From Lachnospiraceae bacterium MC2017 (GTDB lineage Bacteria; Bacillota; Clostridia; Lachnospirales; Lachnospiraceae): a stretch of DNA of 64,000 bases. Below the pieces are notes generated by a model. It had not been told where the DNA came from, ran no database searches, and saw nothing but the letters and a program-made list of their open reading frames with translations. A program made the position numbers and the translations under genes. The stretch's first letter is position 1, and each line of letters starts with the position of its first letter. The stretch covers positions 1 through 64,000 of the forward strand of contig JNJK01000005.1 in NCBI GenBank assembly GCA_000701625.1, in the 5' to 3' direction. Shown here in pieces: positions 22,330-48,783 of the stretch.

Positions 22330-25300
22330 TTAATTGTGCAGCTCGTCGATATTTAGCAGCATTATCCAGCAATATCCTGCTCTCTCCGCCGGAGCCAGCA
22401 GGGAATAAACCCAATGACCGCTCGCTATGCTGAATCTCCTGTATCTGACATGGTCTCCAATGATCGCTGCCTTATACGCATCGGCTATCCATTGCGGATC
22501 CGGATTATGGAATACGTCTTTATACCGCTTTCCTACGATCTCATTCCGGTCTCGTTTAACAAAATCAGTGTATGCTTTATTTACAAATATGTATTCAAAA
22601 TCCTCTGCTCTGTCTCCGTCGGGTGAGCAGATAACTCTGACATATGCTCCCGGGATCGGAATATCTTTATAAACATCATTCCAGTTCATATCATGTTCAG
22701 TGAATTTCACTTTATTTGCATTATCAGTTCCGAACAGAACTTCATTCTTTCTCTTCTCTACACGCATCTTTTGGATGATAATGTGTAATCCCAGGAATTG
22801 TGCGGCTGTTTCCATCACCTTCTCGGCATCAAGTGACTTATCATACTCATAATTTTCAACACCGATAATGCCCGCAAGTTTTCCATTATCATAGAAAGGA
22901 GCCTCCATAAGTCTTTCTATGCCAACACCTTTCATGACACGGTACCGTTCCGGATTTTGATTTTTATATTTATCTATATTGTCTATTACAAGTGTTTTTC
23001 CGAGTTCCAGTTCATTGTTAAAGACTCCGAAATATCCATCTTTATTTACGCTATCCCACTTTGTGCTAACAGACTCGATGCCGAAATCACACCATTCATA
23101 AATGCAGTTCGACTTTTGTCCCTCAACTCCCAGGATAAATACACGGGTCGCCTTAAATACTTCACCAAGCTTAGCAAGAACGTCATTTATCACTTCCGGA
23201 TCGTCTTCATACTTTTCAAGCTTACGTACCAGCTCTATACAAAAATCATCCGTTCTGTACCTGACTCTTGACTTCTCATTTTCTTCAATAAGATACTTTT
23301 CGTTTTCGGACAATTCCCGTATCCGTATGATCGATCCCAAAAGATAGGCTGCTAATTGTAAGAACCTATGCAGATTTATCGAACCATCCATCCGGTAATT
23401 ATCCGCAATAAGATATCCTGTCCGTTCGTATCCATCATAAATAGGCACCATAAAGCTCCGTTCAACGCCCTTTGATTTCAAAAATTCGTAAACCTTCGGA
23501 TAATCTTCTTTTAAGAGCTCCACACTCTTGATATTTTGATTTTCCTCGGTGCTTATTATTTTTTCCAAAACAGCGGCACTTCGGACTAATTTTAATATGT
23601 TCGATTGCTTTTCTTCCAGTTCAAATCCATCTCTGGTCCAGGTATAAGTCTTTACGAAAGTCTTGCCTGCTTTTTTCAATATACCGACACTGCTAGATCC
23701 GGTATATTCTCCGATGATTGAAATCGCATTATATACAGCTGTATCAAAGTCTTCGCTATTTTCAAGCGCCTTTGATACTTCCTGTATTGCTTCATCTATT
23801 GTCATATTTAATAAATCTGTATATTCTGTTATACGCTCGTCATCCACGGCATCACAAATAACCGTACATGCTCCTACCATTCCCATAGGAGCCGCCGTAA
23901 ACTTAAGCCAGTGACTGGTTGCCCCGTCATAAAGCTGACTTCTGATATATTCACCTTTACATGCACGATACGTAAGTTCTATCCAGCGTTTATCTGTTCT
24001 CGGAAATGTCTCGAGATACCCCTTTCCAACAAGTTCATGACGCTTTCTTCCCGTCATATCGCAGTAGACATTATTCACAAACATAAATATCATGTCTTCT
24101 ACGTTTACATTTTTGCTGTCCATCCGAGGACGAACCACGACTATCGGCAGCGGGAAATCGCTGTACTGATTAGGAAGTACTTCACCCGATATAGCCATGA
24201 TTGATTCTTCTTTATGCGTTACCCTGTGCGCTAGCCTGGTCTTTGCGAGTTCCAAAGCTTTTCTGGCATTTCCGGTTTCCATACCGTTTGATGTGCCGTA
24301 AAAAGCTGACAACTCACAGGATGCACCATTTACATCCTTTATGTTATGGATCTCGGCTACACATTCTTCAATTGCCTGTAAAAACTCATCAGTAGAAAGC
24401 TTTCGGGAGCAAATTATAAAGTTGCATCCATCTAATCTCGCAACCATATCTGCGTCACCAAAAGCTTCGCGTATTCGTCCGGCTATGGTTCGGATAACTT
24501 CTCTCGACACTTCCGGGCCATAATCTTTCCTGATCGCCTCGTAACCTTCTACAGATATGACACCATAAATATAGTTTTCACCGTTTATCTGGTAATTATT
24601 GTCATACTCCATGACAGCGAGCATAAGTCCCTGAGCATTTGTAAGGCCTGTGATCGGATCTATCAGCCGTATATCCTGACCTTTAATATCCTTGATGATA
24701 TCCTGCTCAGCATCGATAAAATAACCAATGAGTCCCACTATCTGATTGTCATGGTAAAGTGGAAATTTAGTCACTATAATATTATGTATGACTCCGTCTA
24801 TTACATTGACATTATGTGCATACGGAACAGGCTCCCCTGTTTCAAGGAGCTTCTCTTCTGCCAATAAAGCATCATTTTTTTGCCACCCGAGTTCTTCCTC
24901 TGTCTTCCCTACAAACTCATCTTGGAAATCAAAACCGTAGTACTCACAAAAAGCCCTGCTTGCTCCGAGGAAACGCTGTTCCTTATCTTTCCAGAAAAAC
25001 TTTATATTTCCGTAATCAACAAATGAGTACAGTATGTCCTGAGAAATTTTGAACATATCATCAAGACTCAGATAATTGTATCTGATGATCCTTTTGACGA
25101 TATCAGTCTTGTCTTCGTGACTCTCTATCGAAGAAGGCTTTATGCATATAAGCAGCGACTCGTTTTTATTTTCCGAAAATATGATTACGAGAAATTCCAT
25201 CCATACATAATTTCCGTCAGGTTGGCGAACGCAGAAAATATCCGAAAAGAAACCTCTTCCCGATTCTTTAGCCTTATAAAACAGATAATCCCTGTTCGTA

Positions 25301-27153
25301 AATTTTTTCCAACGATCCATGTCGCCTTCAAATATTTCTCTGGTACTGTAATTCTTGTAAAAATCCACTATGCCATGGATCACATCTCCTTCATTCTCGC
25401 CGGGTATAGAAGAAAAAATAGTTTTTCTCGTGTCGGAAGTAAAATCAAGGATATAAATGGATTCATATACAGAAACCATGTTTCTTATAAGATTGTCTCT
25501 CTCAGAGAACTGCTTCTGTTCCTCATAAAAAGTTCCGTCAAGAGTCGCCTCCATCATATAGCCCTTCTGCGATCTGGCTATAGGCTTCAGTGAAAAATGG
25601 TAATATCTGTTGTTTACTACAAAGGTCATTATCTCTCGATGACCGCTCTTTATTACTTTTTTTGCAAATGCTCTGAACTGACGGCTTGCCGGATTTTCAT
25701 CCGAATTCATGTTGTAGTCGATAGTCGCATCCGGATCTTTTCCGGCCTCAGGCAAAACATTTGCATATTCTTCATTTCTAAATATCAGCTCAAATCGTCT
25801 TCCATCAAAGAAAAACAGCGCACGCGGTTTTGTCGATACAAGATCCGTAAGGCCTGTTTTTTCATATAGTGCAAAGTTTTCTCTGGTTTCAAAAGCTATA
25901 CCTTTTTCCCGTAAATGCTCAAGGAGATCACATAACGGCATGGGTTTTCCGTAATAATATCCCTGTATACGTTCACACCCGATACTTCGTAAAAATTGAA
26001 TGTGCTCCTCTGTTTCTACTCCCTCAGCAAGAGTATGGATTCCAAGTGACTTTGCCATACGCACTACCATGGTCACGATCTTTTTTGACCGCTCATTAAA
26101 GTCTCGAAGGAATATCATATCGAGCTTTATCTCATCAAAATCAAAGTCCTTAAGCATATTCAGCGAAGAATAACCGCTTCCAAAGTCGTCCATCCATACT
26201 TCAAAGCCAGCCTCATGAAATCTCGTAATTGCATCATGAATGCAGCCTTTGTCTGATACAAGGGCTGTCTCGGTAATCTCAACACATATGAGATTTCTCT
26301 GTACTCCGTGCTTATCACAAGTATTAGATATGACTTCTATAGGATCGCAATAGGCAAAGTCAGACCGTGAGATATTTACCGATACCGGAACTACCGGAAG
26401 GCCTTCCTTCAGGCGTTTCTGAAGCATGCTGACAGTGCGTTCTATCATATACATATCAAGTTTATATGACAGACCGTGTTCTTCCAGTACGGCTACGAAA
26501 TCATTCGGGACGATGATACCTCTTTCCGGATCTCTCCATCGCGCCAATGCTTCTACACCGCACAGTCTCTTTGTATATGTGCGCACGACAGGCTGATAAA
26601 AGGGTTCGATCCACCCTTCTGATATCGCCTTATCTATATGATTTAAGATATACTCACGTTTTGCTATCTCTTCAGCTATGGAGTTGTTGTACCATACAAA
26701 AGCAGTCTCCGTAACGTTCCTTATAGTATCAGATGCCGCCTTTGCGAGATTACATACCACTTCTATTTCTATATTTTTTTCAAACTTTGCTATACCTATC
26801 CTTACAGGCAAAGTTTTTCCGCCGTTCAGATATTTTATACTTTCTACGATCCTTTCGATCTTTTCTTCTATCTCATTGACGGTTGAAAGGGCATAAAAAT
26901 GATCCTCTCCAAACCGTGACGCATTTTCCTCAGCAAAATGCTCCACAAGTAGTTCAGAGAAGCTGATAAGCAGACGATCCCCTTCGTCTGTTCCATGTTT
27001 AGAATTGAACCCCTTCATATCGACAAAATTAAAGGCAATGACGACCGGCATGTCGCCGCGTTCGACGATATTTTTCTTACTTAGATTCGCAAGCTGGCAA
27101 AAATAACGTCTTTTTGGAAGCCCTGTAAGATCATCGAGATCTCTTTTGTCCAT
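22330..27153 (-). CDS. Giant EAL phosphodiesterase with two dead GGDEF domains and PAS/GAF array
   Basis: This 1607-residue protein is the first gene of the leftward signalling unit. A degenerate GGDEF (GEDHF at 82-86) precedes an EAL domain with all catalytic residues (E201, N250, E292, D322/D323, K343, E377, Q397). PAS-like regions follow (about 425-540, 555-670, 705-825), then a second degenerate GGDEF in which the motif reads LDGCNF (907-912), a PAS (1000-1105), two GAF domains (1120-1275, 1300-1465) and a final PAS (1490-1607). The only predicted activity is c-di-GMP hydrolysis; the dead GGDEF domains may sense GTP. The ATG follows GAGGGGATATT. Confidence 0.9.
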   Translation of the reverse strand: MDKRDLDDLTGLPKRRYFCQLANLSKKNIVERGDMPVVIAFNFVDMKGFNSKHGTDEGDRLLISFSELLVEHFAEENASRFGEDHFYALSTVNEIEEKIERIVESIKYLNGGKTLPVRIGIAKFEKNIEIEVVCNLAKAASDTIRNVTETAFVWYNNSIAEEIAKREYILNHIDKAISEGWIEPFYQPVVRTYTKRLCGVEALARWRDPERGIIVPNDFVAVLEEHGLSYKLDMYMIERTVSMLQKRLKEGLPVVPVSVNISRSDFAYCDPIEVISNTCDKHGVQRNLICVEITETALVSDKGCIHDAITRFHEAGFEVWMDDFGSGYSSLNMLKDFDFDEIKLDMIFLRDFNERSKKIVTMVVRMAKSLGIHTLAEGVETEEHIQFLRSIGCERIQGYYYGKPMPLCDLLEHLREKGIAFETRENFALYEKTGLTDLVSTKPRALFFFDGRRFELIFRNEEYANVLPEAGKDPDATIDYNMNSDENPASRQFRAFAKKVIKSGHREIMTFVVNNRYYHFSLKPIARSQKGYMMEATLDGTFYEEQKQFSERDNLIRNMVSVYESIYILDFTSDTRKTIFSSIPGENEGDVIHGIVDFYKNYSTREIFEGDMDRWKKFTNRDYLFYKAKESGRGFFSDIFCVRQPDGNYVWMEFLVIIFSENKNESLLICIKPSSIESHEDKTDIVKRIIRYNYLSLDDMFKISQDILYSFVDYGNIKFFWKDKEQRFLGASRAFCEYYGFDFQDEFVGKTEEELGWQKNDALLAEEKLLETGEPVPYAHNVNVIDGVIHNIIVTKFPLYHDNQIVGLIGYFIDAEQDIIKDIKGQDIRLIDPITGLTNAQGLMLAVMEYDNNYQINGENYIYGVISVEGYEAIRKDYGPEVSREVIRTIAGRIREAFGDADMVARLDGCNFIICSRKLSTDEFLQAIEECVAEIHNIKDVNGASCELSAFYGTSNGMETGNARKALELAKTRLAHRVTHKEESIMAISGEVLPNQYSDFPLPIVVVRPRMDSKNVNVEDMIFMFVNNVYCDMTGRKRHELVGKGYLETFPRTDKRWIELTYRACKGEYIRSQLYDGATSHWLKFTAAPMGMVGACTVICDAVDDERITEYTDLLNMTIDEAIQEVSKALENSEDFDTAVYNAISIIGEYTGSSSVGILKKAGKTFVKTYTWTRDGFELEEKQSNILKLVRSAAVLEKIISTEENQNIKSVELLKEDYPKVYEFLKSKGVERSFMVPIYDGYERTGYLIADNYRMDGSINLHRFLQLAAYLLGSIIRIRELSENEKYLIEENEKSRVRYRTDDFCIELVRKLEKYEDDPEVINDVLAKLGEVFKATRVFILGVEGQKSNCIYEWCDFGIESVSTKWDSVNKDGYFGVFNNELELGKTLVIDNIDKYKNQNPERYRVMKGVGIERLMEAPFYDNGKLAGIIGVENYEYDKSLDAEKVMETAAQFLGLHIIIQKMRVEKRKNEVLFGTDNANKVKFTEHDMNWNDVYKDIPIPGAYVRVICSPDGDRAEDFEYIFVNKAYTDFVKRDRNEIVGKRYKDVFHNPDPQWIADAYKAAIIGDHVRYRRFSIASGHWVYSLLAPAERAGYCWIMLLNIDELHN

Positions 27154-39346: not shown

Positions 39347-39420
39347 CTCTATTTCCTTTCTTGATCATGTGAAACAGATGACATATTTGCCTCTTCATTG
39401 TAACGTGTTCTATCAATAAA

Positions 39421-39465
39421 AACCATCATAAAGAATCCAACTTTGACAGATTCTTTATGATGGTT
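39421..39465. terminator. Bidirectional terminator after the glycyl-radical operon
   Basis: AACCATCATAAAGAATC and its perfect 17-bp complement flank an 11-base loop, with A-rich and T-rich tails. It ends the leftward operon six bases after the aldehyde dehydrogenase stop and insulates clpS. Confidence 0.9.
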
Positions 39466-39470
39466 TTATT

Positions 39471-40856
39471 TCAAAGTATACCCTTCAAGACTACACACTT
39501 ACGCCTGGTTACTTCATCAAAGGTCGAGTAAACACCCTCAGCACCTATACCTGACATTTTTGCACCACCGAAAGGCATCTCAAAACTTCTGAAATAACTG
39601 GAACCATTGATCACTACACTTCCGGATTCAAATGCTTCCGTAAAACGCATCGCGGTTTTCATATCCTTAGTAAATACACTTGCTCCGAGTCCATATATGC
39701 TGTCATTTGCAAGCTGAAGTGCCTCTTCCTCTGTCTCAAAAGAAGTAATGGGCATTACCGGTCCAAAAACTTCCATGTCATGCATGATAGCTGCATTATG
39801 CGGAACATCACGTATTATTGTAGGTTCTACAAAAGCTCCATCTCTGTTTCCGCCGAGGACAACTTTTCCACCCTCTGAAACAGTTTTGTTTATCTGCTCT
39901 TCTACGGTCTTTGCAGCATTCTCCGAGATCAATGTACCGATTTTTGTATCAGGATCACTCAATTCACCGCGCTTTATCTTTGAAACCCGTTCTGTGACTC
40001 CGGTTATAAAATCCTCATATAGCGAACTATGCACAAGGAAGCGCTTAGGAGCACAACAGATCTGACCGGCATTAAAGAATCTTCCTCCGGCCGCCTCAGA
40101 AACTGCAAGATCCAGATCTGCATCCTTAAGGACCACAAATGCATCGTTACCGCCAAGTTCCAGCGCTGTTTCTTTTAATCCTTCCGCAGCCATCTTTGCG
40201 ACCTGAACACCAACTTCGGTAGATCCCGTAAGTGAGATCAGTGCAACCTTTTCATTTGTACAAAGCGCCTTACCGATCTTAGAACCGCTTCCGGTAACAA
40301 CACTAATAACATCCTCAGGAAAACCTGCTTCGTGCAGGAGTTCAACTAGTCTGATAACTGTGAGCGGATTTGCGGATGCAGGCTTTACGATCACTGTATT
40401 ACCAGCCAGGAGTGCCGGAGCAACTTTTTGATTAAAGAGATTTGTAGGAAAATTGAATGGAATGATCGCAGCGACAACACCAACGGGTTCCCTTTTTGTG
40501 ATCACCACATTTCTATCATGTCCGGCTTCCAGTCCCGCAGGTATCACTTCGTCGTAAAGGTGTTTCGCTTTTTCTCCAAAAGCTCTCCAGGAAGTAAAGA
40601 TATTATTCATTTCAATCTCTACTTCTGAATAATTCTTTCCGGATTCAGAAGACAGAAGTGCCTTCAGTTCTTCTCTGTTCTCCTTCACGAGTTCCAGAAA
40701 TCTCAAAGAAAAATCGACTCTTTTATATACCGGCACCTTTTTCCAATCTTTTTGTGCCGCAAACGCACGATCTACGACTTCTCCTATCATGCTGTCCGTA
40801 TATTCTTCTACTTCACCAACTATTTCACCATTATAGGGATTAGTTACCTTTATCAT
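39471..40856 (-). CDS. NAD(P)-dependent aldehyde dehydrogenase of the glycyl-radical operon
   Basis: The 461-residue enzyme is a non-acylating aldehyde dehydrogenase of the succinate-semialdehyde/lactaldehyde group. It has the nucleotide-binding PFNFPTN and ISLTGSTEVG, the general base E233 in ALELGGND and the nucleophile C267 in FFNAGQICCA. It oxidises an aldehyde to a carboxylic acid with reduction of NAD(P)+. It ends an operon whose preceding gene makes an aldehyde by glycyl-radical chemistry, so its substrate is probably that aldehyde; 3-sulfopropionaldehyde is one candidate. It lacks the CoA-binding features expected of acylating enzymes such as PduP. Confidence 0.9.
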   Translation of the reverse strand: MIKVTNPYNGEIVGEVEEYTDSMIGEVVDRAFAAQKDWKKVPVYKRVDFSLRFLELVKENREELKALLSSESGKNYSEVEIEMNNIFTSWRAFGEKAKHLYDEVIPAGLEAGHDRNVVITKREPVGVVAAIIPFNFPTNLFNQKVAPALLAGNTVIVKPASANPLTVIRLVELLHEAGFPEDVISVVTGSGSKIGKALCTNEKVALISLTGSTEVGVQVAKMAAEGLKETALELGGNDAFVVLKDADLDLAVSEAAGGRFFNAGQICCAPKRFLVHSSLYEDFITGVTERVSKIKRGELSDPDTKIGTLISENAAKTVEEQINKTVSEGGKVVLGGNRDGAFVEPTIIRDVPHNAAIMHDMEVFGPVMPITSFETEEEALQLANDSIYGLGASVFTKDMKTAMRFTEAFESGSVVINGSSYFRSFEMPFGGAKMSGIGAEGVYSTFDEVTRRKCVVLKGIL

Positions 40857-40872
40857 ATCTGCTTAACACTCC

Positions 40873-43350
40873 TTAAAAATGAAGTTCTGTTCTTTGTATC
40901 AGGTCTGTCTGCAACCTCGTTCCAAGTTCAACAAAATATGCACTGTAACCTGCCACACGTACTAACATATCCTTATAGTCTTCAGGATGCTTCTGCGCCT
41001 GTCTCATGGTCTCTGCACTCATAATATTAAACTGTATATGCATAGGTCCCTTTGCCATGTACTCACGAATAAAGTACATAAGGTTATCCCTGCCTCTTTG
41101 TCCAGAAACAGCATCCTGCGGAAATCTCATGTTCATAAGTGTTCCGTTTGTAGCCAGTGAATGGTCTGCCTTTGCGACAGAATTTGCAAGTGCTGTAGGT
41201 CCGGCAATATCGTGAGAGCCTGTAGAATTATGCACCGGTCCCATATTTTCGGAAATTGCTTCTCCCTTTTTCCTTCCGTCAGGTGTCGCATTTGTATTTA
41301 CGCCCATTGCGACATTAGCATTTACAGAATACACGCCAGGATGGTAATGACCACCCTTTCTCACTGTCTCTCTGCCTTCCAGGCTCTTGCAGTAGGTTTC
41401 AAATACGAAGCGGAACAGATCATCCGCATAATCATCATCATTTCCGTAATGATGAACTTTCGTGCTGTTCGTCAGAGCATAGAGCCATTCATAACCTTCA
41501 TAGTTATTCTTTAATGCCTTAAGGAACTCTGCACCCGTACAGACCTTTTCTTCAAACACAAGCTGCTTTATGGCAGAAAGCGAGTCTGCACAGGTTGCGA
41601 TACCACTCGCCTGCGGTCCGATACCATTATATCGCGCACCGCCGGCATTTAGATCGATTCCTTTTTCCATGCAATCAGGGAAAAAGGCTGATACAAACGG
41701 CAGCGGCTTCAGGCTTTGATGCCCCTTTTCAATGACACTGAGTGAAGCACACATCCTGTCAGCCCAGTAATTTACCTGTGCCTTAAAGGACTCAAGAACC
41801 TCATCAAAGGAATTGAAACTGTCAAGTGAACCTGTATCCGGACCTATCCTATCATCTGAATCAAGACATTTTCCACCATTTATAACGAGTTCCATCATTT
41901 TAGCGGTATTAACATATGCTGCATCATGCCAGCCATATTCACGTCCGGGCAGGTCGATTTCCACACATCCGACCACACAGTAGTCTCTTGCTTCCTCAAG
42001 CGACATTCCTTTTCTGAGCATAGCCTTTACAGCAGGTCCATCGTTAAAGAGCTTAGGATGGCCGTAACCCGCTCTTATACACTCAACAGCCTTGCATAAC
42101 AGCTCATGCGGTGTATTTTCGTGGATACGTACACAAACCCACGGATTCATCATTCTCGTATGGGCAGAAGCCTCCAGCATCAGCATGGTAAGGTCATTTG
42201 TTGCGTCCTTCCCTTCTGTATCGGTTCCACCGATAGTAAGACTCTCACCACCAAATCCACGGCCGTTTCTAAGTGCCATACTTCCACGGTCTTTGAGCTT
42301 TGTAGGATTATTAAGCTTTACGTAGATCACTTCAAGCAGTTCCAGCGCAAACTCTTTTGTGATCGCCCCATTCTTAATATCATTCTCATAAAAAGGATAG
42401 AGCCATTGATCCATTCTTCCGTAAGAAATGGAATGACCATTTCCCTCTACCACGATCAGACTGGTCGCTATCTGAAAGAGCTGTAGTGCTTCACAGAAGC
42501 CCTTCGGTGCATCTTCGGCGATAGCGCGGCAAACCTCTGATAAACGTGTAAGTTCCGCCTTACGCCCAGGATTTTTCTCAACTGCCGCCTTTTCCTCCGC
42601 AAGATCTGCATAACGGATCACATACTTTGAAACAGCCTCATACATTATGATGACTGCCTTGTAAAATTCACGTTTTGCCGGATCTTTCTCTGTCGAAAAC
42701 TTTTCCTCGGCTTCTTTACGTATACCGCCAAATCCAAGTGTCATAAGCCTTGGATAATCTATTGCAAGATGGCCGACACCTGCGTAGTGATACAGATTTG
42801 TCTGAAATACTCTCGCCCCGTCCTCAGAACCTTTTGTTTCCTCACGAGTCAGATTGTCATCCACATAATCTTCAACGGTCTTTCCTCTCCACCACTCGCA
42901 AAGCTCAAGTATTTCCTGTCTCTCCTGATCATTTCTTACATAAAACTGATCATGTTCTCTTTCTTCAAACGGAAAATTTTTAATCTCATTTATTATCCAT
43001 TTTACAGAAAACTCAGGATATATAGGTGACGCCTTTGCCGGTGCGCAGATCTCACCAACGATCAGATCCTCATCGTAAATATAAAGATCCGTATTAAGAA
43101 GTACATTCTGAAAAGCATAGGCACATTTCATGATCTGACTCTCATTCTCATGCGCCTTATAACTCTCTGTCACAAGACGGAGTCTCTGCACATCAATATA
43201 ATATTCTCTATCAAGAAAAGTCTTCCTTAAATGATTTACTCTTGGAAACGGAGACCAGTCACCATGATGCACCTGATATCCAAGTCCATAGCTCTTATCA
43301 TAAGGTTCTGTTCCTATTGCTTTTGTATGCGCTTCTTTATTCATTATCAT
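40873..43350 (-). CDS. Glycyl-radical enzyme, dehydratase-like, probable organosulfonate or diol substrate
   Basis: The 825-residue protein is a pyruvate-formate-lyase superfamily member. The glycyl-radical loop is RVAGYSAYFVEL (G801) and the thiyl motif is GCVE (C462, E464). As in glycerol and propanediol dehydratases, an Asp (D476, in GWHDAAYVN) lies 12 residues after the motif Glu and a His (H194) lies in GVGHLAIDYP; choline and isethionate lyases usually differ there. This favours elimination of water over C-N or C-S cleavage. The start is at 43350 (ATG; 43344 also possible) and overlaps the activase stop. Transporter context suggests a sulfonate such as dihydroxypropanesulfonate. The substrate is inference. 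Confidence 0.88.
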   Translation of the reverse strand: MIMNKEAHTKAIGTEPYDKSYGLGYQVHHGDWSPFPRVNHLRKTFLDREYYIDVQRLRLVTESYKAHENESQIMKCAYAFQNVLLNTDLYIYDEDLIVGEICAPAKASPIYPEFSVKWIINEIKNFPFEEREHDQFYVRNDQERQEILELCEWWRGKTVEDYVDDNLTREETKGSEDGARVFQTNLYHYAGVGHLAIDYPRLMTLGFGGIRKEAEEKFSTEKDPAKREFYKAVIIMYEAVSKYVIRYADLAEEKAAVEKNPGRKAELTRLSEVCRAIAEDAPKGFCEALQLFQIATSLIVVEGNGHSISYGRMDQWLYPFYENDIKNGAITKEFALELLEVIYVKLNNPTKLKDRGSMALRNGRGFGGESLTIGGTDTEGKDATNDLTMLMLEASAHTRMMNPWVCVRIHENTPHELLCKAVECIRAGYGHPKLFNDGPAVKAMLRKGMSLEEARDYCVVGCVEIDLPGREYGWHDAAYVNTAKMMELVINGGKCLDSDDRIGPDTGSLDSFNSFDEVLESFKAQVNYWADRMCASLSVIEKGHQSLKPLPFVSAFFPDCMEKGIDLNAGGARYNGIGPQASGIATCADSLSAIKQLVFEEKVCTGAEFLKALKNNYEGYEWLYALTNSTKVHHYGNDDDYADDLFRFVFETYCKSLEGRETVRKGGHYHPGVYSVNANVAMGVNTNATPDGRKKGEAISENMGPVHNSTGSHDIAGPTALANSVAKADHSLATNGTLMNMRFPQDAVSGQRGRDNLMYFIREYMAKGPMHIQFNIMSAETMRQAQKHPEDYKDMLVRVAGYSAYFVELGTRLQTDLIQRTELHF

Positions 43351-44296
43351 TTGTACCAATCCTGCAGGGTATTCCCTGACTTATAAAGAAATCTCTGATA
43401 GTTCTTACTCTTTTTTGAAATGAATCCCTGTCGACCAAAAAATCGCCCATAGGATAATCGAGGCATAACGAAGAATATTTTTCCTCACCAAGACGCATGT
43501 AGCTAAGTAGCTGCAGCTCTTCTATTTTACCATTCATCTTAAATTTGATAAAATCCGCAGTCTCCTGCATGTTCTTATCATCATCATTAATACCGGGGAT
43601 CAATGGGACACGTAATATTATCCGTATGTTTTCGGAAGACAATTTTTCCAAATTAGATAATATCAGCTTATTAGTTGCTCCGGTATATTTTTTATGAATT
43701 TCATCATTCATGTGCTTAATGTCAGAGATAAAAATATCTGTAAACGGAAGTAACTTTTCAACCGCTTCATATTCCACATGAAGACATGATTCCACACATG
43801 TACTGATATCCTCGTCTTTACACGCAGAAAGAATTTCTTTTACGAAATTAGTTTGCAAAAGGGGCTCGCCACCTGAAATGGTAACGCCGCCCCCTGATCG
43901 TTCATAATATCCTTTATCCTTACGTATTATATCCATACATTCCGAAACAGATCTTTTTATGCCCCAAACTTTAATTGCATCAGCAGGACATTTTTCCGCA
44001 CATTTCAGTGCTTCGTTGCTTTGCTGCCTGTCATAACCGCTGATCACATTCCCATTAAATCTCAAGGCTTCGTGACCGTCAGACACACAACATCTGCCGC
44101 ACTTATCGGTTCCTATGCATTTTGTTGGATAAATACCCGGTTCAGGATGATCCATCCAGCTCTCGGGATTAGAACACCAGCGGCATCTTAAGGGGCATCC
44201 CTTAAGAAAAAGCTCAGTTCTAAGTCCCGGACCGTCACTGATGGTGAACCTCTGTATGTTAAAGACAAGGCCAGAAGCCTTATTTTCCATAAACAT
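43337..44296 (-). CDS. Glycyl-radical enzyme activating protein (radical SAM)
   Basis: The 319-residue protein installs the glycyl radical on its partner encoded immediately downstream. The radical SAM cluster motif is CPLRCRWC (Cx3CxxC), followed by SNPESW, typical of activases. A ferredoxin-like insert with two four-cysteine groups (CIGTDKCGRCC and CAEKCPADAI) should carry extra [4Fe-4S] clusters, as in activases of dehydratase-type enzymes. SGGGVTISGGEPLLQ is the SAM-binding GGE region. Both ends overlap neighbouring genes, so the operon is translationally coupled. Confidence 0.95.
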   Translation of the reverse strand: MFMENKASGLVFNIQRFTISDGPGLRTELFLKGCPLRCRWCSNPESWMDHPEPGIYPTKCIGTDKCGRCCVSDGHEALRFNGNVISGYDRQQSNEALKCAEKCPADAIKVWGIKRSVSECMDIIRKDKGYYERSGGGVTISGGEPLLQTNFVKEILSACKDEDISTCVESCLHVEYEAVEKLLPFTDIFISDIKHMNDEIHKKYTGATNKLILSNLEKLSSENIRIILRVPLIPGINDDDKNMQETADFIKFKMNGKIEELQLLSYMRLGEEKYSSLCLDYPMGDFLVDRDSFQKRVRTIRDFFISQGIPCRIGTNDNE

Positions 44297-45323
44297 GCTC
44301 TGAGAAATCGTAGCTGTCTGTCAGATTACCGATCTTTACAAGGAAATCAATAGTATCATTAAGACCGGCAATATCCTTATCTGTAATATCAACTGTGTAA
44401 TCCCAGTTTCCGGCAACAGTTGCTACCTGAGCTTCATCAAGTGAGAGATACTCAGCGATCGCCTTAAGAGTGTCGCCGCTAAGATTCGGTAACTCCTCAA
44501 CACCTCTCTTATATGCATCTACGATAGCATTGATGATAACCGGATTTGACTCGGCAAATTCTCTGTTTGCCATGATAGGATTAACTCCGAGGAGATCTGT
44601 ATCACGAGCATATGCAAGAGGCTTTGCTGTACCGTTCTCAATAAGACGGGTTACATTTGGTTCCCAAATAGTAACTGCCGCAGCCTGACCTGTTGAAAGA
44701 ACTGTTCCGGCATCACCAGCATTGATATTTACAAAGTTTACATCAGTATTGATATCAAGACCTGCATCTGAAAGAAGTTTTTCCATAAGGTTATGACCTG
44801 TTGAACCGATAACAGTGGATACTGTCTGACCTTTGAGATCAGCGACAGACTTCACATCTGAATCAGCAGGAACAAGAAGTGCATACGCATTTGTTCCCTC
44901 AGCTGCAATAGCGATAGCCACATTATCCTGACCTGCTGCTATGGCAGATACAGCCGGAACATCTCCAAGGAAACCAATATCAGAACTTCCTGCTGCCATT
45001 GATTCATTCATTGGCGGGCCTGACTCAAAATCATTCCAATTTACAGTAACGCCATACTCTGAAAGAGACTCCTCAAGCCATCCCTCTTCTCTGGCGATCA
45101 TAAACGGGATAAATGCTCCTGAAGGCTGCATAGCGATATTTACTTCGGTATCTGTTACACCCTCTGCACTCGATGCAGCAACTGTTTCTGCACTTTCCTC
45201 TGTTGCAGGCTGCGCCTCAGTGTTTGCCTCACTGCCTGCTGCCGCGCTTTTGCTGCCGCATGCAGAAAGCATAGTCATCGCCATGATGCCGGCAAGCATC
45301 ACTGATACTACTCTCTTTTTCAT
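44280..45323 (-). CDS. Substrate-binding lipoprotein of a sulfonate-type ABC importer
   Basis: The 347-residue protein has a lipoprotein signal ending in LSAC, a Ser/Ala/Glu-rich tether and a periplasmic-binding fold of the SsuA/TauA/NMT1 type. Typical stretches are VNIAMQPSGAFIPFMIAREEGWLEE, GSSDIGFLGDVPAVSAIAAGQ and TVSTVIGSTGHNLMEKLL. The family mostly binds alkanesulfonates, taurine or nitrate, though thiamine precursors also occur. The start is at 45323 because GGAGGAG lies just upstream. Its place before a glycyl-radical enzyme suggests that it captures that enzyme's substrate. Confidence 0.9.
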   Translation of the reverse strand: MKKRVVSVMLAGIMAMTMLSACGSKSAAAGSEANTEAQPATEESAETVAASSAEGVTDTEVNIAMQPSGAFIPFMIAREEGWLEESLSEYGVTVNWNDFESGPPMNESMAAGSSDIGFLGDVPAVSAIAAGQDNVAIAIAAEGTNAYALLVPADSDVKSVADLKGQTVSTVIGSTGHNLMEKLLSDAGLDINTDVNFVNINAGDAGTVLSTGQAAAVTIWEPNVTRLIENGTAKPLAYARDTDLLGVNPIMANREFAESNPVIINAIVDAYKRGVEELPNLSGDTLKAIAEYLSLDEAQVATVAGNWDYTVDITDKDIAGLNDTIDFLVKIGNLTDSYDFSEHVYGK

Positions 45324-45381
45324 AATCTCCTCCATAATGAAAATTGTTTATATCTGACCTGAAATAGCCTTTTTTTCATGA

Positions 45382-46125
45382 TCATGCACTGATGGTGATC
45401 GCATCAAATACTTTCTTTCTGACATTTACAAATTCCAGACTGTTTCTGTCTCTGTCCTCCGGCAGATCTACATTGATGATCTTACGGATGGACCCCGGTC
45501 TGTTTGTAAATATAACGATCTTGTCAGCAAGATATACTGCTTCTTCTATATCATGAGTGACCATGATAGTGGTCTGATGACTTTCATTGTGAATACGTCT
45601 GACTGTCTGCTGAAGCTGGATCTTTGTAAGCGCATCGAGTGCTCCGAATGGTTCATCCATAAGCAGGACTTCCGGTTCATTAGCAAGTGCACGGGCTATG
45701 CCTGCTCTCTGAGCCATTCCTCCGGACAATTCCTTAGGAAGAGCAGTCTCAAATCCTCTGAGGCCGACCATATTTATAAACTCTGAAACCTTACGATTTT
45801 TTTCTTCCTTATCCTTTGTATCAAGGACATAACTAATATTCTGGCTAACATTCATCCAAGGGAAAAGGCGAGGTTCCTGAAATACCATTCCGCGCTGTTT
45901 TTCCGGTTTCTTTATTTCTTTTCCATCAACGGTTATCGAGCCCTCGTATTTTACTTCAAGGCCTGCGATAGATCTTAGAAGAGTGCTCTTTCCGCATCCG
46001 CTTGCACCTACAAAACAAATGAACTCACCCTTATTTATATCAAGATCGATATTTTTAAGAACCTGAAACTCTTCACCATTATTCTCAAAATATTTATTTA
46101 CATTCTTAAGCTCTATATATGCCAT
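45382..46125 (-). CDS. ABC importer ATPase, SsuB/TauB type
   Basis: The 247-residue ATPase has Walker A GASGCGKST, Q-loop VFQEPRLFPWMNV, signature LSGGMAQRAGIARAL, Walker B VLLMDEPFGALDALT and the switch His in TTIMVTHDIEEAV. The QEPRLFPW and GALDALT stretches are typical of nitrate/sulfonate/taurine importers. It energises uptake by the permease and binding protein encoded on either side. Its start codon overlaps the permease stop by one base. Confidence 0.94.
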   Translation of the reverse strand: MAYIELKNVNKYFENNGEEFQVLKNIDLDINKGEFICFVGASGCGKSTLLRSIAGLEVKYEGSITVDGKEIKKPEKQRGMVFQEPRLFPWMNVSQNISYVLDTKDKEEKNRKVSEFINMVGLRGFETALPKELSGGMAQRAGIARALANEPEVLLMDEPFGALDALTKIQLQQTVRRIHNESHQTTIMVTHDIEEAVYLADKIVIFTNRPGSIRKIINVDLPEDRDRNSLEFVNVRKKVFDAITISA

Positions 46126-46883
46126 TACCAGTAAATCACCTTTTTCTCAACTGCTCTGATAATTGAATCCATAACCTTGCCGATCACACCGATAGTGATC
46201 ATGCCTACTATAACAGTGTCTGTCTGACCGAACTGTCTCGCATTCATTATCATAAATCCAAGACCTGTATTTGATGATACGAGCTCGGCTGCAACTACAC
46301 ACATCCAGCAGGATGAAAGACCAACTCTGAGTCCTGTAAAGATATTAGGAGCTGCTCCCGGAATTATCACCTTAAAGACATGGGTAAAAAACGGTGTTTC
46401 TGCAACCTTTGATACTTCAAGGAGCTTAACATCTGCCTGTCTGATACCATCATATACATTTATAAGGATAGTGAAAAAGCCGCCAAGAAAGATCAGGAAT
46501 ACCTTTCCTGTCTCACCGATACCAAACCAAAGGATCACAAGAGGAATCCAGGCGATCGGTGGGATCGGCTTAATGATCTGAATAAGAAGATCTGTAAATC
46601 TTCTTGCATGCTCAAAGAGACCTATTACGATACCGAGCACTATTCCTGCAACAGATGCAAGGATGTATCCCTTAAGGACACGTGCAAGGCTTACTGACAT
46701 ATGTTGGATAAGTGTCTGCTTTGTAAGAAGTGAAACAAAAGTCTCAAACACTTTATCCGGCGCCGGAAGGATGACAGGATTAAGTGTTCCCTGCTTTTCA
46801 AGCATCATCCATACAGCAAGTATCATTATAACTAACGCAACATATTCAACAAAATAGCCTGTTTTCTTTGTCAGATGTCTCAT
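46125..46883 (-). CDS. ABC importer permease, SsuC/TauC type
   Basis: The 252-residue membrane protein has about six helices and the binding-protein-dependent transport EAA loop variant (EVSKVAETPFFTHVFKVIIPGAAPNIFTGLRVGLSSCW). The core RFTDLLIQIIKPIPPIAWIPLVILWFGIGETGKVFLIFLGGFFTI is characteristic of sulfonate, taurine and nitrate permeases. It is the first gene of the glycyl-radical operon, with GAGGTAGAG before the ATG, and is preceded by two operator-like palindromes. Confidence 0.94.
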   Translation of the reverse strand: MRHLTKKTGYFVEYVALVIMILAVWMMLEKQGTLNPVILPAPDKVFETFVSLLTKQTLIQHMSVSLARVLKGYILASVAGIVLGIVIGLFEHARRFTDLLIQIIKPIPPIAWIPLVILWFGIGETGKVFLIFLGGFFTILINVYDGIRQADVKLLEVSKVAETPFFTHVFKVIIPGAAPNIFTGLRVGLSSCWMCVVAAELVSSNTGLGFMIMNARQFGQTDTVIVGMITIGVIGKVMDSIIRAVEKKVIYW

Positions 46884-46985: not shown

Positions 46986-47006
46986 TTAATTCTAATTCAG
47001 AATTAA
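46986..47006. promoter_or_regulatory. Operator palindrome 1 upstream of the sulfonate/glycyl-radical operon
   Basis: TTAATTCT and AGAATTAA flank AATTC; the match extends two more bases on each side (TTTTAATTCT/AGAATTAAAA, 46984-47008). It lies about 100 bp upstream of the permease start. A related copy is centred 50 bp away at 47036-47056. Confidence 0.7.
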
Positions 47007-47035: not shown

Positions 47036-47056
47036 TTAATTCCAATTAAGAATTAA
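47036..47056. promoter_or_regulatory. Operator palindrome 2 upstream of the sulfonate/glycyl-radical operon
   Basis: TTAATTCC-AATTA-AGAATTAA has the same arms and five-base spacer as palindrome 1, with one mismatch. The 50-bp centre-to-centre distance is close to five helical turns, which would place two dimers on the same DNA face. The XRE gene at 47109 is the nearest candidate regulator. Confidence 0.7.
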
Positions 47057-47108: not shown

Positions 47109-47354
47109 TCATATTTTCTTAAATAACTCATCTACAGGTACGTTCAGTATCCTGGCGATCGCGTAGACTTCACGGTCTGTTGCTATCCTTGTCTGACCTT
47201 CCAGTTTTGAAAGTGATGACAGATTCATATCAACCCCCATCAGCTGCATGTTCATTGCCAGGTCTTTCTGACTCATATAATTTAACTTTCGGAGCTTTGT
47301 CACCCTCGCTCCGATCATATTTTTATCTCCCAGAGGAGCTGATCTTGGTTTCAT
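47109..47354 (-). CDS. XRE-family helix-turn-helix regulator
   Basis: The 81-residue protein consists essentially of one XRE/Cro-type DNA-binding domain: VTKLRKLNYMSQKDLAMNM with the first helices, and NLSSLSKLEGQTRIATDREVYAIARILNVPVDELF with the recognition helix and closing helix. It starts one base after the stop codon of the adenylating enzyme gene, so the two are coupled. The paired palindromes between it and the importer operon make it the best candidate for controlling that operon. It has no ligand domain, so the signal is unclear. Confidence 0.85.
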   Translation of the reverse strand: MKPRSAPLGDKNMIGARVTKLRKLNYMSQKDLAMNMQLMGVDMNLSSLSKLEGQTRIATDREVYAIARILNVPVDELFKKI

Positions 47355-47355
47355 A

Positions 47356-48783
47356 TTATATTCCCAGTATATGTCTCATGACTTTTCCGGTTGCTGTTCT
47401 AGGGATCTTTCCGATCTCATAAATTTCCTTCGGTACTCTGTAGGTTTCCAGATTTTTGGAGAGGATCTTTTGCAATTCCGTGAGATCAAACTTTTCATTC
47501 CTAACTACATAAAGAACAGGAACTTCTCCAAGTTTTAAATCCCTAACCTTTGTGCAGGCACAGTCATCTATTCCTTCATATTTTAATGCTGCTTCCTCAA
47601 CCTCAAGAGGCGTGATCTTCTGTCCCGCTACATTAATTATGTCTCCAACCCGGCTCACGAAATGATAATATCCACTTTGATCAAAATATGCTATGTCATT
47701 TATTATGATCAGATCACCTTTCATCACTTTCTCAGTCAGAGATTTCTTTTTATAATAGGCTTTCATGTTCATGGAACCACTTACAGCTACATGTCCATAA
47801 CTTCCGGGCTCAGTGATCTTTTTCCCGTTTTCATCCAGAAGCATAACTTCTGCATTTACAGCTGGTTTTCCTATACAGTCAGCCTCATAGTTTTCTGCTG
47901 TATCATGTATCAGTATGCATCCGGCCTCTGTTGTCCCATAGACGTTATAAAGTGTCACTTCAGGAAACAATCTATGAAAAGCAAGCGAAATATTTCCGGG
48001 CAAAACCGATGCTACCGACTCTGCCTGTTTGATCGACAAAGGAAATTTATCACTTTTATCCATAAACTCATCTATAATTGCCGATAATGAAGTAGACACC
48101 ATAGAAAGACGGTTTACTTTATATAGATCAGAATACTTCGTGATCAGAGCTCCGTCATACGCTTCATTTGTAACTATAACTGTCCCACCGGAGATCAGCA
48201 CAGCCATTACCCTCAAAAACCCCGTAGACAGGTATACCGGCATATTTGTCAGCATAACCGTATCTTTGTTTATTTTTGTGCCATCAACGAGGTTTTCCGC
48301 AGCTGCAAGGAGACTTGCATTAGTATGCAGGATGAGCGACGGTCTCCCTGTGGTTCCCGTAGTAGAAATGATAGCTGCATCGTTTTTTTCTTCAGGAAAT
48401 GACCGGCTGTTTAATTCCGTGTCAGCCGGTTCTGTTAAATAATTACTATATTTTTCTCCGTTATTTTGTAAAAAAATAAGTGAAGGCCTTGTCGTATTTA
48501 TTATCTCATTCAGTCTGTAAATAGACATTCCGGCTTCAACAGGAACTACTACAGCTCCAAAAAGCATGCTGCCTAAAAATGCTGTAAAGTAACCGGCTAT
48601 GTCTGATGTTTCCAGGAGAATACGGTTTTTCTTTTTGATCTTTGCCTTTTTTAGTTTTTCAGAAAATGACACAGCTCCGGAAATAAGCTCCTTATATGTT
48701 AATTCTTTCTCTCCTGTAATAAGCGCTGTTTTGTCCGGATTTCCAGCATATCTCGTATATATTTCTTCAATATAACTACTCAC
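47356..48783 (-). CDS. AMP-forming acyl-CoA synthetase/adenylating enzyme (ANL superfamily)
   Basis: The 475-residue enzyme has the adenylation signatures ISTTGTTGRPSLILHTN (P-loop), YNVYGTTEAG, DIAYFDQSGYYHFVSR-GD and the C-terminal catalytic lysine in PRTATGKVMRH. It activates a carboxylic acid as the acyl-AMP, usually before transfer to CoA. It starts at GTG 48783 with GGAAG upstream. Its substrate is unknown. The link to the XRE gene and the neighbouring operon raises the possibility that it activates the acid made by the aldehyde dehydrogenase, but it may serve an unrelated acid. Confidence 0.85.
   Translation of the reverse strand: MSSYIEEIYTRYAGNPDKTALITGEKELTYKELISGAVSFSEKLKKAKIKKKNRILLETSDIAGYFTAFLGSMLFGAVVVPVEAGMSIYRLNEIINTTRPSLIFLQNNGEKYSNYLTEPADTELNSRSFPEEKNDAAIISTTGTTGRPSLILHTNASLLAAAENLVDGTKINKDTVMLTNMPVYLSTGFLRVMAVLISGGTVIVTNEAYDGALITKYSDLYKVNRLSMVSTSLSAIIDEFMDKSDKFPLSIKQAESVASVLPGNISLAFHRLFPEVTLYNVYGTTEAGCILIHDTAENYEADCIGKPAVNAEVMLLDENGKKITEPGSYGHVAVSGSMNMKAYYKKKSLTEKVMKGDLIIINDIAYFDQSGYYHFVSRVGDIINVAGQKITPLEVEEAALKYEGIDDCACTKVRDLKLGEVPVLYVVRNEKFDLTELQKILSKNLETYRVPKEIYEIGKIPRTATGKVMRHILGI

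Follow-up and report, generated by a model that had tools for sequence, protein, structure and literature searches.

To which end product does a sulfonate-directed glycyl-radical enzyme lead when it is encoded together with a sulfonate-type importer and a non-acylating aldehyde dehydrogenase? This question is raised by a 64,000-nucleotide stretch of the genome of Lachnospiraceae bacterium MC2017 (assembly GCA_000701625.1, contig JNJK01000005.1, positions 1 to 64,000), which we term the window and to which all coordinates given without a locus number refer. On its minus strand, six co-directional open reading frames (ORFs), namely ssuC, ssuB, ssuA, hpfH, hpfG and aldN, occupy positions 39471-46883. 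(S)-2,3-Dihydroxypropane-1-sulfonate (DHPS) arises from plant sulfolipid breakdown, and its fate in bacteria influences how much hydrogen sulfide can follow. A prediction made from the DNA sequence alone had read the locus as import of DHPS, dehydration to 3-sulfopropionaldehyde and oxidation to 3-sulfopropionate. The same model emerged from our analysis as the best-supported reading. We regard import by SsuABC, dehydration by HpfG/HpfH and oxidation by AldN, taken together, as probable, given the family membership of HpfG, its residues His191 and Arg367 and the catalytic residues of AldN, with DHPS as the predicted substrate.

The Radical Enzyme of the Operon Belongs to the HpfG Family

HpfG (40873..43359, minus strand, with a TTG start) scored 1491 bits against NF048009, the HpfG equivalog model, and 511 bits against the HpsG model, both of which have a cut-off of 1000. 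In the phylogeny of 84 sequences, it was placed inside the part containing the HpfG sequences of Klebsiella, Hungatella and Enterococcus, apart from the C-S lyases and glycerol dehydratase, and it was 69% identical to the homologues of Klebsiella spallanzanii and Hungatella. As the original prediction had pointed out, Asp479 lies 12 residues after Glu467 of the GCVE motif and His197 sits in GVGH. Together with C465, H309 and S310, these residues (E467, D479 and H197) matched those of glycerol dehydratase in the alignment, and we take the six to be the catalytic set of a dehydratase. Gly804 in the glycine loop was invariant across 31 rows. The dehydratase-like enzyme of the original prediction is, judged from the model score, the tree and the active-site residues, a member of the known HpfG family and, by membership, a predicted DHPS dehydratase.

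His191 and Arg367 stand in place of Tyr of glycerol dehydratase, and are absent from glycerol dehydratase, propanediol dehydratase, HpsG and all six paralogues of 43-47% identity described below. Along with H197, H309, S310, C465, E467, D479, Y677, N188, E372 and T375, they were shared by all 20 canonical rows picked and by all 14 rows of a second set, while S373 was kept in 13 of these 14. The second set comprised 11 importer-type sequences (see below for the details) plus those of L003, L047 and L050, which had no importer in the fetched surroundings (the loci and genomes compared are designated by L and G numbers, respectively). His191 and Arg367 are predicted to contact the sulfonate of the substrate. 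A structure model of HpfG built with 31 sequences (mean pLDDT 83) matched 1r8w best, with a TM score of 0.89 and the glycerol dehydratase fold, and glycerol dehydratase was the best PDB match by sequence as well as by fold.

The six paralogues (L106-L108, L110, L111; genomes G229, G154, G309) are glycyl-radical enzymes in which the dehydratase residues compared are retained, whereas His191 and Arg367 are missing. Three of the six, 46-47% identical to HpfG, exceeded the NF048009 cut-off, if barely (1014-1057 bits). A score against the HpfG model is thus no proof by itself, and such paralogues may be misnamed HpfG. As for NF048011, the HpsG model, it carries the name sulfopropanediol dehydratase, while HpsG is described as a DHPS sulfite-lyase (PMC12890257, PMC13219744). 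The predicted radical-SAM activase of HpfG, HpfH, is encoded by the gene at 43337..44296 (minus strand); among the 19 families matched, NF048008 came top with 468.5 bits (cut-off 500).

An SsuABC-Type Importer Shares the Operon

The compact layout and single closing terminator that had been predicted were both recovered. All six ORFs lie on the minus strand, the junctions ssuC/ssuB, ssuA/hpfH and hpfH/hpfG overlap, and the other two gaps are of 46 and 16 bases. The intrinsic terminator (39420..39466, minus strand, read from 39466 to 39420) consists of a 20-pair stem and a T-rich tail. The region scanned contained 12 terminator-like sites, where shuffling predicted 6.9; the stem of the operon was the longest of all, the next having 10 pairs.

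SsuA (44280..45335, minus strand), the substrate-binding protein, scored 165.3 bits against TIGR01728 (cut-off 163.5), and its best PDB match was 2x26, an aliphatic sulfonate-binding protein. The permease SsuC (46125..46883, minus strand) had the SsuC model as its best NCBIfam match, with 182.8 bits against a cut-off of 347, and the ATPase SsuB (45382..46125, minus strand), with both NCBIfam and Pfam matches, was likewise under its equivalog cut-off. The importer is of the SsuABC type and of the sulfonate family, as had been proposed (SsuABC/TauABC-like), and it is predicted to bind a sulfonate.

Besides its own genome, no relative of SsuA was detected at E<=1e-75 in 391 genomes of the class. 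In the SsuA tree, the sequence of the window grouped with that of genome G103 with a support of 97/97, and the G103 importer was the closest relative found (72, 64 and 61% identity for SsuC, SsuB and SsuA, respectively). In G103, ssuCBA is directly followed by a glycyl-radical enzyme of the C-S-cleaving type and then by an activase (L128:7749-13760, with L137:10467-16657). This enzyme scored 1412 bits against the HpsG model, its three strongest PDB matches were IseG, IslA and HpsG, and it has Gln at the position of IslA Phe682. Since G103 pairs the importer relative with an enzyme of the C-S-lyase type, importers of one type are found with sulfonate radical enzymes of two kinds. At 9-15 kb upstream of the G103 ssuC, we found cysK, which passed its cut-off, two genes that narrowly missed theirs (one for a trans-sulfuration enzyme and another cysteine-synthase-like gene), and an Rrf2-family regulator. 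The G103 cluster of ssuCBA, C-S-lyase-type enzyme and activase is in its own right a candidate operon for the assimilation of sulfonate sulfur.

Most HpfG Loci with an Ssu-Like Importer Lack Linked Canonical Partners

In published clusters, HpfGH is accompanied by the reductase HpfD and the exporter HpfE, or additionally by the CoA-acylating HpfX and the ADP-forming HpfYZ (PMC11489063). For the genomic context of HpfG, 74 loci and stretches of further genomes were fetched, and 73 HpfG loci were counted, with partners sought within nine ORFs. L057 (no HpfG ORF labelled), L070-L072 (34% outgroup), L073 (fragment) and the paralogue loci L106-L108 and L110-L112 were left out of the count. Ssu-like importer genes were found in 12 of the 73 loci. 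In 11 of these 12, which we term importer-type, SsuABC homologues are adjacent to hpfGH, and HpfD, TauE, DASS, LuxR and HpfXYZ were all absent (the flanks of L052, L054 and L002 being short). On the other hand, at least one canonical partner accompanies HpfG in 52 of the 61 loci without Ssu, and in 42 of the 46 such loci whose flanks reach 2.5 kb or more on each side.

At the threshold used, the genome of the window yielded no HpfD orthologue. The three best iron-dependent alcohol dehydrogenases were 30-38% identical to an HpfD, whereas full-length HpfD sequences share about 70-92% identity with Hungatella HpfD; we thus reject an HpfD hidden elsewhere in the genome. HpfXYZ was not found within nine ORFs of the operon, the range to which that search extended.

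The importer-type HpfG sequences appeared at three places in the 84-sequence tree. When ten of them were held in a single clade, the constraint was rejected with a p-AU of 7.8e-9, so that the pairing of importer and HpfG arose more than once and a single origin can be dismissed. This test used a quick tree of 63 of the 84 rows, from which 21 long, partial, near-duplicate or distant rows had been dropped and in which L049 was outside the held group.

AldN Is Predicted to Act in the Oxidative, Non-Acylating Branch

The last gene, aldN (39471..40856, minus strand; Pfam Aldedh 503 bits), encodes an aldehyde dehydrogenase that we propose to act on 3-sulfopropionaldehyde. Glu233 and Cys268, presumably its catalytic residues, were conserved in all 14 homologues aligned. 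The top models of AldN were non-acylating dehydrogenases, whereas a homologue of HpfX matched acylating ones; residues and best models together led us to reject a CoA-acylating role of the HpfX type. An AldN homologue was present in all 12 distinct HpfG genomes picked (those of importer type, L003 and L050), with an identity of at least 60% in 10, and the search in G103, which has no HpfG, was negative. These data support the predicted placement of AldN in a non-acylating, oxidative branch.

Homologues of at least 60% identity were confined to 3 of 391 family genomes, namely that of the window, G176 and G204, the same three that carry an importer-type HpfG within the family sample. In six other family genomes (L164-L169), homologues of 54-57% identity adjoin an IclR-like regulator, and a protein of similar length is encoded upstream; in the one case tested (L164), the latter is a FIST-domain protein. 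AldN as a generic dehydrogenase was therefore rejected, the 54-57% homologues occupying a different setting. The start of AldN is about 16 residues later in the window, L001 and the L003 genome than in the homologues of other genomes.

A Probable Regulon Marked by Paired Dyads

The gap that separates ssuC from the next gene upstream contains two putative 21-bp operators of the class TTAATTC-N7-GAATTAA, dyad 1 at 46986..47006 and dyad 2, 50 bp away, at 47036..47056, both recognized by exact site search and comparison of upstream regions. The next gene, xre (47109..47354, minus strand), encodes an 81-residue helix-turn-helix regulator (Pfam HTH_3 27.7 bits, cut-off 23) and starts one base after ampB (47356..48783, minus strand; Pfam AMP-binding), which encodes an AMP-forming acyl-CoA ligase, proposed to be a 3-sulfopropionate-CoA ligase. 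The whole 4.26-Mb genome contains only two exact sites, both between xre and ssuC, and allowing one mismatch added two, each within a gene. Within the window alone and with two mismatches allowed, the count was unremarkable (19 of 100 shuffles reached at least two matches); the weight of the dyads hence lies in the exact matches and their conservation. With two exact sites and the two one-mismatch sites inside genes, a global control of the cysteine type (CymR) through these dyads is unlikely.

The core TAATTC-N7-GAATTA occurred in 13 of 133 loci, each of them an importer-type HpfG locus or a copy of one. Paired dyads with 21 or more of 24 matches, each equalled by 0 of 500 shuffles, were detected in 14 of the 18 upstream regions tested, namely five regions of aldN and, L049 apart, all nine of ssuC or ssuC-hpfH. 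Their spacings fell into two classes, 39-42 and 49-50 bp, which differ by about one helical turn, so that the paired dyads may be bound on one face of the helix.

XRE was 99-100% identical in L001 and L002, and homologues of 69-73% identity adjoining ampB were found in seven other importer-type HpfG genomes. XRE and AmpB are thus neighbors in ten genomes (that of the window, L001, L002, L043, L044, L051, L052, L053, L054 and L062), and the set of importer, HpfGH, AldN, AmpB and XRE recurs in these ten. In six of the seven (L043, L051, L052, L053, L054 and L062, but not L044), the pair lies at or near aldN on a contig other than that of hpfG. Because related genomes bear similar paired dyads upstream of aldN on another contig, beside XRE and the ligase, we regard the set as a conserved regulon, of which XRE, acting at the paired dyads, is the likely switch as predicted from adjacency.

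As for AmpB, its TTGTTG loop and Lys467, which we read as adenylation motifs, were invariant in 8 of 8 sequences, and it was under the cut-off of the best 25 of the 86 NCBIfam models matched. At E<=1e-100, AmpB was matched in 2 of 397 family genomes, that of the window and G176, both of importer type; the G204 AmpB (37% identity) misses this threshold. Two genomes of the same genus without the operon gave no match at E<=1e-60. There is about an even chance that AmpB forms 3-sulfopropionyl-CoA from 3-sulfopropionate.

The Proposed Pathway and the Points against It

In the pathway that we propose, SsuABC would take up DHPS, HpfH would put the glycyl radical on HpfG, and HpfG would dehydrate DHPS to 3-sulfopropionaldehyde. 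AldN would then oxidize the aldehyde to 3-sulfopropionate with the formation of NADH, the direction being that expected of a non-acylating dehydrogenase, and AmpB would convert the acid to 3-sulfopropionyl-CoA, while XRE would bind both dyads ahead of ssuC. This scheme is weakest as regards the substrate acid of AmpB and what becomes of its product.

Several observations weigh against this reading. HpfH falls 32 bits short of its family cut-off. At the sulfonate site, the cationic residues anticipated by the original prediction are present at the sequence level (His191 and Arg367), but an alignment gap lies close to Arg367 and the structure model, with a pLDDT below 50 at 358-368 and unreliable also at the glycine loop, is too weak to place Arg367. 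AldN is under the cut-off of the best 25 of the 45 NCBIfam models matched, the top one being lactaldehyde dehydrogenase (442 against 650) and SafD reaching 345 against 700, and the sample of 12 genomes contained no canonical HpfG genome as a control. A divergent iron-dependent alcohol dehydrogenase follows aldN in the L043, L044, L052 and L062 genomes, and some members may still reduce the aldehyde. The absence of a linked HpfD is not peculiar to importer-type loci, as it is missing in 16 of the 46 well-flanked loci without the importer (30 have it), including Vibrio loci with a TauE-like gene. The twelfth Ssu-bearing locus, L102, is one of the canonical bifurcated clusters and has an ABC system of distant similarity (32-42% identity). 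In L049, HpfGH is combined with an importer of another kind (SsuC 29%), an AldN of 49% and an alcohol dehydrogenase of 41% identity, and XRE, AmpB and the dyad pair were not found at this locus. The aldN regions of L161 and L162 carry a single dyad, no convincing pair was seen upstream of aldN in the L003 genome, where 15 of 500 shuffles did equally well, and the binding of XRE to the dyads is deduced from adjacency.

In the L044, L052 and L062 genomes, moreover, aldN has its control region in common with an ABC importer of another type, on account of which AldN, or the regulon as a whole, may serve several sulfonates. In the L052 and L062 genomes (L158:8483-12660 and L159:2250-6430), this second importer comprises one binding protein, two permeases and two ATPases, the dyad-bearing region is common to it and aldN, and the first importer is also present in the genome.

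For What Purpose Is DHPS Converted?

The import and conversion of DHPS could supply sulfur instead of carbon or redox power. 3-Sulfopropionyl-CoA would then yield acryloyl-CoA and sulfite, either by a crotonase-like enzyme or unaided, and the sulfite would pass through sulfite reductase to cysteine; such a loss of sulfite would be conceivable in principle, by chemical analogy. We hold this purpose to be possible but less likely than not being the case. Active import and an AMP-forming ligase probably outweigh one NADH in ATP, and the 11 importer-type loci (three with short flanks) have no linked TauE or DASS exporter, the comparison covering the loci and not exporters elsewhere in the genomes; with ATP spent on import and ligation and no exporter linked, a simple fermentation would look costly. 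What makes sulfur scavenging plausible is that the closest importer relative, in G103, lies beside a C-S-lyase-type enzyme and 9-15 kb from cysteine-synthesis genes. The genome of the window also has AsrB and AsrC over their cut-offs, besides a second sulfite-reductase-like gene below its cut-off, and a precedent is provided by ssuCAB and isrBHDK of Rhodobacter capsulatus (PMC11423573). Nevertheless, neither a desulfonating enzyme in the operon or regulon nor a sulfur gene next to the operon was recognized, the C-S bond stays intact through HpfG, and the acid of AmpB is a proposal. In its fullest form, this would be an undescribed anaerobic regulon for sulfur scavenging, with DHPS imported at the cost of ATP and processed by HpfG, AldN and AmpB up to the beta-elimination of sulfite, XRE switching it at the dyads and the importer being exchangeable between dehydrating and C-S-cleaving enzymes; we consider this full version doubtful.

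An unlikely purpose, in our view, is the use of DHPS as an electron donor, in which its conversion to 3-sulfopropionate would provide NADH for fermentation, the acid would exit by an unlinked exporter and AmpB would be an unrelated housekeeping enzyme. The non-acylating AldN and a genome in which no HpfD orthologue was found agree with it, as does 3-sulfopropionate being an end product of Enterococcus gilvus (PMC11489063). It is at odds with the recurrence of AmpB and XRE with importer-type HpfG and with the two same-genus genomes in which neither the operon nor AmpB (E<=1e-60) was matched, and active import would probably cost more than is gained. An operon serving another sulfonate or an unsulfonated diol, on which the radical enzyme would act, is quite improbable. 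Glycerol dehydratase being the best PDB match speaks for it, as does variation near the active site in the second set, for example W477 to Y/F in 9 of the 14 rows and A193 to G in 8 of the 14, whereas H191 and R367, kept in all 14 of these rows and lost in all six paralogues, and an importer of the sulfonate family speak for DHPS as the substrate.

Comparison with Known Systems

The pathway of HpfGH, HpfD and HpfE was described in Klebsiella oxytoca and Hungatella hathewayi (Liu et al. 2020, as cited in PMC11489063 and PMC12330013). The operon in the window is alike in HpfG, its active-site residues and HpfH, but differs in having an ABC importer and a non-acylating dehydrogenase, in the lack of an HpfD orthologue among the genes found in the genome, and in having no linked TauE-type exporter or LuxR-type gene. 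In the bifurcated HpfGHD-HpfXYZ pathway of E. gilvus, a CoA-acylating dehydrogenase and an ADP-forming ligase make ATP (PMC11489063). The predicted conversion of DHPS to 3-sulfopropionate via 3-sulfopropionaldehyde is the same here, whereas the dehydrogenase is non-acylating and the linked ligase is AMP-forming and would spend ATP. According to the same paper, HpfXYZ clusters invariably occur with HpfD, and 3-sulfopropionate was suggested not to be made in isolation (PMC11489063). The operon in the window may make 3-sulfopropionate alone, and the end product cannot be told from HpfG alone when genomes are annotated.

R. capsulatus uses isethionate as an anaerobic sulfur source by means of ssuCAB and isrBHDK (PMC11423573). 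Its importer and that of the window belong to the SsuABC/TauABC family, and both are paired with an anaerobic sulfonate enzyme, but the operon in the window contains no monooxygenase or nitrogenase-like reductase, the partner of the importer being a dehydrating glycyl-radical enzyme. HpsG and IslA (PDB 6lon and 7kq3; PMC8473560) share the glycyl-radical fold and sulfonate substrates, and it is an enzyme of this type that the importer relative adjoins in G103; at the positions of His197, His309, Ser310 and Asp479 of HpfG, however, HpsG has Gln, Ser, Ala and Gly. A non-acylating 3-sulfopropionaldehyde dehydrogenase takes part in the use of homotaurine by Cupriavidus necator (PMC11489063), and AldN is likened to it by the proposed reaction, not by sequence, the pathway being different.

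The original prediction had suggested that the system may be new. This did not hold for the enzyme, which is the known HpfG, and the finding is for that reason not categorically new. New is the assembly around HpfG, that is, the SsuABC importer, AldN, AmpB, XRE and the paired dyads, which the original prediction had seen in part: it did not mention xre, the CoA ligase gene further upstream or the pair of dyads that lies between ssuC and xre. Among the literature matches listed, in a search that covered neither preprints nor most subscription journals, no paper paired an SsuABC importer with HpfG, and the XRE-linked assembly of importer, non-acylating dehydrogenase and CoA ligase was likewise absent from the excerpts matched. 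As to its product, 3-sulfopropionate is an electron acceptor for Bilophila wadsworthia, whereas 3-hydroxypropanesulfonate is not (PMC11489063), and a review of 2022 states that the anaerobic fate of 3-sulfopropionate needs study (PMC9594981). The AmpB ligase and the regulon are testable candidates for that fate. A rumen study of 2026 measured DHPS and 3-sulfopropionate and saw isethionate as the sulfonate product; the word HpfG does not occur in its main text (PMC13219744).

Genome Setting

All genes of the operon recur in the same order in L001 (Lachnospiraceae bacterium NK4A144) and L002 (uncultured Lachnospiraceae), with proteins 94-99% identical. In the two genomes of the same genus, HpfG, SsuA, AmpB and AldN were all unmatched at the thresholds used, so that the operon looks like an accessory trait. 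Elsewhere in the genome of the window (L117 and L118), AsrB and AsrC adjoin a formate-dehydrogenase-like gene, and the second sulfite-reductase-like gene lies in a cluster whose other genes resemble, by eye, ThiF, a JAB-protease, a sulfur carrier and a cysteine desulfurase. In the window itself, positions 22330-27153 encode a 1607-residue protein with GGDEF, EAL, several PAS and one GAF domains.

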